From: Pseudogulbenkiania ferrooxidans 2002
GTDB taxonomy: Bacteria; Pseudomonadota; Gammaproteobacteria; Burkholderiales; Chromobacteriaceae
Direction of reading: 5' to 3'
DNA: 64,000 nucleotides
NCBI RefSeq assembly: GCF_000174355.1
Contig: NZ_ACIS01000003.1
Span: forward strand, 248,001 to 312,000
Shown here: piece by piece, positions 50,267 through 50,444 of the stretch
Numbering within the stretch: position 1 is the stretch's first letter
Layout of the letters: each line of letters starts with the position of its first letter
The notes under the pieces: model-generated
Database searches by the model: none
Told to the model about the DNA's origin: nothing
The model's input: only the letters and a program-made list of their open reading frames with translations
Translations under genes and position numbers: made by a program

Positions 50267-50329
50267 ATGAAAAACATGAATACCTCGTTCGCAATCGCTT
50301 TCTCGTTTGGTTGGTGGCGCCTGTCCTAG
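50267..50329 (+). CDS. Tryptophan leader peptide before trpS
   Basis: A 20-residue open frame, MKNMNTSFAIAFSFGWWRLS, has two adjacent Trp codons (50312-50317) and ends with TAG at 50327-50329. The second Met (50276) is an alternative start. Tandem Trp codons followed at once by alternative hairpins and a terminator are the hallmark of ribosome-mediated attenuation. Too short for automated gene calls. No conserved ribosome site is obvious; GAGTG lies upstream. Confidence 0.8.
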   Translation: MKNMNTSFAIAFSFGWWRLS

Positions 50330-50393
50330 GCGGCACCGCGGTTGCGTACACCCGAAAACCCCGGAGCTGCCAGCAGGCGCTCCGGGGTTTTCG
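50313..50393 (+). promoter_or_regulatory. Trp attenuator of trpS
   Basis: Three competing structures can be drawn. Hairpin 1:2 pairs 50313-50321 with 50329-50337 (8 of 9 pairs) and covers the Trp codons. Antiterminator 2:3 pairs 50329-50343 with 50357-50371 (13 of 15, including one G-T). Terminator 3:4 pairs 50353-50367 with 50379-50393 (15 of 15), followed by TTTCC. A ribosome stalled at the Trp codons would block 1:2, favour 2:3 and let trpS be transcribed when charged tRNA-Trp is scarce. Confidence 0.8.
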
Positions 50394-50444
50394 TTTCCCA
50401 CCCCTCCTTGCTGGCAGTCTCCCTGAACCCTAGTGGAGCACAGC

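Follow-up and report, generated by a model that had tools for sequence, protein, structure and literature searches.

The window, that is, the whole 64,000-nucleotide stretch of DNA analyzed here, derives from a Pseudogulbenkiania-like member of the Chromobacteriaceae. Its + strand, on which all its features described below are located, carries the gene trpS2 (50445–51467), coding for a 340-residue tryptophanyl-tRNA synthetase (TrpRS). Upstream, on the same strand, ppsR precedes a short leader ORF, and the probable downstream genes of the operon (51512–52521) encode a CTP-synthase C-terminal-like protein (51512–52204) and a chorismate-mutase-like protein (52201–52521). A gene of the latter type adjoins trpS2 in a large number of Chromobacteriaceae, and the attenuator described here may act on it too.

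The solved structures closest to the trpS2 product are those of the Deinococcus radiodurans TrpRS II (2a4m and 1yi8; E 4e-119, ~400 bits), the next structure after TrpRS II scoring ~220 bits. The genome also harbors a second trpS (G000:C13), which codes for a 398-residue TrpRS with the usual His in its ADWHALT motif, and a search for a Trp leader upstream of this housekeeping gene found none. Because of this second, leader-free trpS and of its own relationship to TrpRS II, trpS2 is, as judged from sequence, the gene of an auxiliary synthetase of the TrpRS II type. The original prediction, a leader-peptide attenuator controlling trpS, therefore holds for the attenuator, whose leader and stems are conserved, but not for the gene, which is not the housekeeping trpS. 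A motif search further revealed that the position of His43 in the Bacillus TrpRS is occupied by Gln in TrpRS II (ADAQALT and variants; one protein has Arg and 19 were not read by the pattern) and by His in the housekeeping enzyme. Replacement of this His by Asn renders the Bacillus TrpRS resistant to indolmycin (PMC4899734), and the Gln suggests that TrpRS II may likewise tolerate Trp-like inhibitors. In three genomes of one genus we saw only TrpRS II, with its attenuator, and in three genomes of another only the longer TrpRS; either enzyme can therefore serve as the sole synthetase.

A conserved Trp leader ORF with a predicted promoter

The ORF upstream of trpS2 spans positions 50267–50329, encodes MKNMNTSFAIAFSFGWWRLS and contains tandem Trp codons (TGG TGG, 50312–50317). 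It had been read as a 20-residue leader, of which the tandem Trp codons stand but the start does not: the ATG at 50267 overlaps the predicted −10 box, whereas that at 50276 is invariant in the 30 Chromobacteriaceae species aligned, and was thus preferred. The resulting leader ORF (50276–50329) specifies the 17-residue peptide MNTSFAIAFSFGWWRLS, and insertions and deletions before its Trp codons in the same alignment always come in multiples of three.

The predicted promoter (50239–50268) consists of a −35 box (TTGACT, 50239–50244) and a −10 box (TTTGAT, 50263–50268) separated by an 18-nt spacer; it was missed by a simple consensus scan because TTTGAT has no A at position 2. Comparison of relatives uncovered TTGAC 33–39 nt 5' of the leader ATG in 30/30 Chromobacteriaceae and 17/17 Massilia-type loci, and TATAC 11–14 nt 5' of it in 32/33 Burkholderia-type loci, against chance expectations of 0.007 and 0.0007 per locus, respectively. 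A promoter box at constant spacing from the leader ATG is thereby found in 79 of the 80 loci with a leader, while a Shine-Dalgarno-like motif before this ATG is found in none of the 80 (0/30 in Chromobacteriaceae). From the constant spacing and the missing Shine-Dalgarno motif we conclude that the leader mRNA is probably leaderless, with a predicted transcription start at or adjacent to the AUG at 50276.

Predicted classical attenuator helices

All three pairings of the original prediction were confirmed, with the same pair counts. Segment 1 (50313–50321), which includes bases of the Trp codons, pairs with positions 50329–50337 of segment 2 (1:2, 8 of 9 paired). Segment 2 (50329–50343) can alternatively pair as antiterminator with positions 50357–50371 (2:3, 13 of 15, including one G-U at 50332:50368) of segment 3, which spans 50353–50377 with its apical loop. 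Finally, positions 50353–50367 pair with 50379–50393 (3:4, 15 of 15), the latter belonging to segment 4, which reaches from 50379 to 50396 with its U-rich tail. Antiterminator and terminator are mutually exclusive, as segment 3 is common to both. Stem and U-rich tail together make up a predicted intrinsic terminator between leader and gene, which was found in most relatives as well. The terminator stem or the U-tract looks weakened at four loci (L008, L034, L022, and L020).

In the window, folding energies of approximately −19.5, −21.9, and −35.4 kcal/mol were calculated for 1:2, 2:3, and 3:4, with z-scores of −0.8, −2.7, and −7.3 against dinucleotide shuffles; the window sequence alone thus places 3:4 and 2:3 above chance, but not 1:2. 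Across species, the mean z-score of the terminator was −4.4 over 75 loci, pre-selected for a stable hairpin, whereas 2:3 by itself was weakly above chance in many species (mean −1.3) and 1:2 weaker still (mean −0.8).

Covariation, which the original prediction had proposed to look for in related Neisseriales, supports all three stems. In Chromobacteriaceae, 94.6% of the alignment cells of 1:2 are paired, and 1:2 and 3:4 together accumulate 5 cells changed on both sides versus 0.9 in shuffles, a count that none of 500 shuffles reached; the fixed-register count failed for 3:4, the window stem being shifted by one base, and this helix was counted after re-registering. The covariation score of 2:3 was matched by 3/500 shuffles. 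Stem letters are wholly unlike between families and pairing is nonetheless retained, as in AACCCGG/CCGGGTT versus GATGCCGCC/GGCGGCATT versus AACGCCGCCTC/GGTGGCGTT.

Distribution of the element in Burkholderiales

We collected 104 TrpRS II loci, which were reduced to 99 by removal of duplicates. A tandem-Trp leader, ending in WWR or similar and usually followed by a terminator, precedes the gene in 80 of these 99 loci, related species not being independent samples. It is present in all 30 Chromobacteriaceae compared, and also in Burkholderia, Paraburkholderia, Cupriavidus, Herbaspirillum, Massilia, Janthinobacterium, and others; the conservation of Trp codons expected of a genuine leader is therefore borne out. 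Three more loci carry a single-Trp leader (ending in YYKWRP in L026, LNWRR in L051, and RYWRA in L088), and R right after W is shared by nearly all leaders. Conservation of the Trp codons is not merely a consequence of pairing, because the first TGG in the Burkholderia group is unpaired in the predicted structure and still nearly invariant. The leader is absent in 16 TrpRS II loci, namely those of Methylophilaceae (six loci), those of Collimonas and a close relative (six), and a few others.

The genes around trpS2 vary between families, which indicates that the leader travels with trpS2. An RNA model built from Chromobacteriaceae only (R1) located the element upstream of trpS2 in other families, and in the source genome it matched only the trpS2 site plus, weakly, one sequence without a Trp leader. 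With a second model (R2), the element was recovered in front of TrpRS II genes from families absent from its training data; among its matches scoring below about 30 bits, several are due to chance. Remoter relatives of the TrpRS gene, from other orders of the same class, yielded no leader. The attenuator at the window locus, regarded at first as unusual, is accordingly carried by most of the Burkholderiales TrpRS II genes sampled, and an auxiliary TrpRS of Streptomyces provides a precedent (see below).

Similar leaders were also seen in front of other genes. In one genome (G253), the element occurs before trpS2 (L168), and a gene for a transporter of the sodium:neurotransmitter-symporter family (L171/L123, on contig C1) is preceded by an attenuator of this type as well, with a Trp leader (MTAVFLAGWWRA, then stop) and with 3:5 complementarity as described in the next section. 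In another (G116:C21, L148/L172), a tandem-Trp leader and a terminator lie before the gene of a protein of 207 residues, the first 110 of which match no Pfam family. Upstream of trpE in Chromobacteriaceae (G000:C17, L117; L175–L187 and L194) there is a strongly conserved short ORF (MKFLPNLASWRWQR or similar, then stop) with W-R-W near its stop codon, which ends ~45–60 nt before trpE in most loci and is followed by no terminator that we could see; its product may act by ribosome stalling and in this way control the translation of trpE.

Covariation points to a fifth segment

Positions 50407–50422 (CTTGCTGGCAGTCTCC), beyond the terminator, form what we call segment 5, which can pair either with positions 50363–50375 or with the trpS2 ribosome-binding site. 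The attenuator had been described as complete, with all its parts in view, yet both segment 5 and the stem at the ribosome-binding site had been missed. Segment 5 is complementary to segment 3 plus its apical loop and would form in the window a helix (3:5) of 13 pairs with one bulge and −24.7 kcal/mol, far less stable than 3:4. This complementarity was significant against shuffled sequence (p<0.05) at 52 of 73 loci, and at 12 of 14 further loci with a located hairpin, the transporter attenuator L171 among them; some of these 14 had been inspected before the 3:5 test, and the set is thus not fully held out.

The 3:5 helix was derived from the same alignments on which its covariation was then tested, namely that of Chromobacteriaceae, where double-sided changes occur in 11 of the 16 pairs and in 39 cells versus 15.6 ± 2.8 in shuffles (0/500), and a separate one of the Burkholderia/Herbaspirillum group, with 17 such cells versus 5.0 ± 3.3 (0/500). 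The covariation score in Chromobacteriaceae was 0.306, as compared to 0.186 ± 0.012 in shuffles (0/500) and to at most 0.150 upon sliding the register. Covariation of 3:5 is stronger than that of the classical helices. Similarly, pairing of each segment 3 with its own segment 5 in 38 representatives yielded −20.3 kcal/mol versus −15.6 kcal/mol for swapped partners (permutation p 2e-4). Collectively, these comparisons make it almost certain that the predicted 3:5 pairing exists.

The helices 1:2, 2:3, and 3:4 suffice for classical attenuation, and segment 5 could be a by-product of a transcription-only attenuator, for example, a duplicated segment 4 devoid of any regulatory role. However, the complementarity of segment 5 extends to the loop of segment 3, a part that finds no partner in segment 4, and these loop positions outside 3:4 covary with segment 5 (e.g., C-G 12, U-A 9, U-G 6). 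Further, L008, L034, and L022 retain a 3:5 duplex of 13–14 pairs despite their weakened terminator, suggesting that translational control can outlast termination. Complementarity of segment 5 to the ribosome-binding site is likewise retained. Although equilibrium folding does not predict translational opening (see below), a transcription-only attenuator is in our opinion an unlikely, if still serious, account of the locus.

Segment 5 and the trpS2 ribosome-binding site

Segment 6 (50432–50447) is the trpS2 ribosome-binding site, with GGAG at 50435–50438 and the ATG at 50445–50447, and is predicted to be sequestered by segment 5. The bases facing segment 5 are the Shine-Dalgarno sequence of trpS2 in Chromobacteriaceae, Burkholderia, and Herbaspirillum, and those just 5' of and at the start codon in Massilia-type loci. 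Own 5:6 partners paired at −12.6 kcal/mol versus −9.2 kcal/mol for swapped ones (permutation p 5e-5). The calculated cost of opening the ribosome-binding site was 11.7 kcal/mol with segment 5 free and 4.7 kcal/mol with segment 5 bound; shuffling the sequence upstream gave 7.7 kcal/mol, and the mean z across 69 loci was 1.7. We therefore consider it very likely, on comparative grounds, that 5:6 pairs as predicted. A conserved sequestering stem (5:6) and an alternative partner for it (3:5) are hence both present, as dual control demands.

As to the direction in which such a switch would act, equilibrium folding in which segment 4 was blocked and a stalled ribosome was included in the model showed no mean opening of the ribosome-binding site (8.8 versus 8.0 kcal/mol), and with a stalled ribosome 2:3 plus 5:6 is the preferred combination in several species. 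Taken literally, 2:3 formed upon starvation would leave segment 5 free to close the ribosome-binding site, and translation would dampen the transcriptional response. Such an arrangement would, however, cut the supply of synthetase just when the cell requires it, and 3:5, the most strongly covarying helix, would then form only rarely. Folding barriers also speak against it: a crude calculation on 30 representatives selected for having 3:5 gave a mean of 6.3 for the transition from 2:3 to 3:5 versus 9.0 for that from 2:3 to 3:4, the former being lower in 26 of the 30. We thus regard the dampening switch as improbable. Because equilibrium folding showed no opening, the sign of the translational effect rests on these barriers, and the balance tilts slightly towards 3:5 freeing the ribosome-binding site under Trp shortage.

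Two further explanations fare worse. Since T-boxes control trpS in other phyla, the element could be a T-box or a riboswitch binding tRNA-Trp or Trp directly, but no Rfam family, Trp_leader included, reached gathering score in seven loci, the window giving only chance matches, and outside the coding leader and the segments that pair, the sequence is not conserved; this possibility is very remote and the candidate was dropped. That the hairpin merely terminates ppsR, upstream on the same strand in the window, with Trp codons arising by chance, is refuted to the point of being negligible by leader and terminator accompanying trpS2 into loci without ppsR, by the conserved promoter between ppsR and the leader, and by the retention of Trp codons in 80 loci.

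Proposed mechanism

Together, these data favor, as the likely overall explanation, dual-level Trp attenuation of an auxiliary TrpRS II gene by a translating ribosome, and leave very little doubt about its core, that is, Trp leader-peptide attenuation of trpS2. Leader, Trp codons, promoter geometry, and the predicted 1:2, 2:3, 3:4, 3:5, and 5:6 pairings are well supported by comparison of relatives, from which we infer leaderless translation, stalling, and termination, as well as the order in which these events take place and the direction of the effect on translation, as follows.

Transcription would start at the leader AUG, and the leader would be translated without a Shine-Dalgarno sequence. 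With ample Trp-tRNA, the ribosome would reach the stop codon and cover segment 2, so that 3:4 forms and transcription ends; in the occasional readthrough RNA with 3:4, segment 5 would be free and 5:6 would close the trpS2 ribosome-binding site. When Trp-tRNA is scarce, either for want of Trp or because the housekeeping TrpRS is blocked, the ribosome would stall at the Trp codons, allowing 2:3 to form and the polymerase to continue. As 2:3 leaves the loop of segment 3 unpaired, and as segment 5 is the only one complementary to this loop, segment 5 would then gain entry there and take the place of segment 2. Formation of 3:5 would free the ribosome-binding site, and the spare synthetase would be made.

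The most far-reaching version of this model has, in our estimation, an even chance of being right. It envisages a ribosome-mediated, leaderless attenuator of six segments, where a downstream segment takes over the antiterminator by invading from the free loop bases, and a single stall thereby decides on termination as well as on whether the ribosome-binding site opens. The element would define a small Trp regulon across Burkholderiales, comprising TrpRS II plus a sodium-coupled transporter in one genome, and would let cells replace an inhibited housekeeping TrpRS. A link of the same stall to the ribosome-binding site through segment 5 would, if true, show how leader-peptide attenuation can extend from transcription to translation with no protein involved, explain the conditions that switch on the spare TrpRS II, and add an order-wide RNA family absent from Rfam.

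Comparison with known systems

Textbook leader-peptide attenuation involves four RNA segments, and covariation in two separate alignments points here to a fifth. The paradigm, E. coli trpL-trpEDCBA, shares with the element the tandem Trp codons and the 1:2, 2:3, 3:4 logic, but governs a biosynthetic operon and has a leader with a Shine-Dalgarno sequence, and the element does not match the Trp_leader family of Rfam. To our knowledge, no fifth segment pairing with segment 3 is known for E. coli trpL. In the trp leader of Bacillus subtilis, Trp sensing acts on both termination and the ribosome-binding site, as proposed here, although the sensor is the TRAP protein instead of a translating ribosome.

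Among proteobacteria, the Sinorhizobium meliloti trpL-trpE(G) system resembles the element in its leaderless Trp leader (14 residues) and transcription attenuation, but it controls biosynthesis rather than a synthetase, and no segment 5 is described for it (PMC7298713). E. coli pheM-pheST, whose attenuator is mentioned in PMC1262725, is likewise a case of leader-peptide attenuation of an aminoacyl-tRNA synthetase, differing in the amino acid (Phe), the enzyme (housekeeping), and the architecture. The D. radiodurans TrpRS II, closest solved structure to the trpS2 product, is also an auxiliary TrpRS (PMC9437257), but in that species it is connected with nitric oxide synthase, and its induction follows radiation damage.

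The nearest parallel comes from Streptomyces, where attenuation of an auxiliary TrpRS was predicted (PMC1262725) and ribosome-mediated attenuation of S. coelicolor trpRS1 was reported by Vecchione and Sello 2010, as cited in PMC4787780. As in trpS2, a second TrpRS gene lies behind a short Trp-containing leader; that of S. lividans trpL2-trpS (MMTRTCTQLWRAA, then stop) is leaderless (PMC8079986) and also shows R after W. The Streptomyces systems differ in belonging to Actinobacteria and in having one Trp codon and no noted U-rich stretch, and a segment 5 or ribosome-binding-site switch is not described in PMC1262725, PMC8079986, and PMC4787780. Our search of the open-access literature found no report of auxiliary-TrpRS attenuation in Betaproteobacteria, nor of a fifth segment in a leader-peptide attenuator. 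Leader-peptide attenuation, including that of an auxiliary TrpRS in Streptomyces, was therefore already known; within the limits of this search, the fifth segment and the Burkholderiales TrpRS II element appear to be new.
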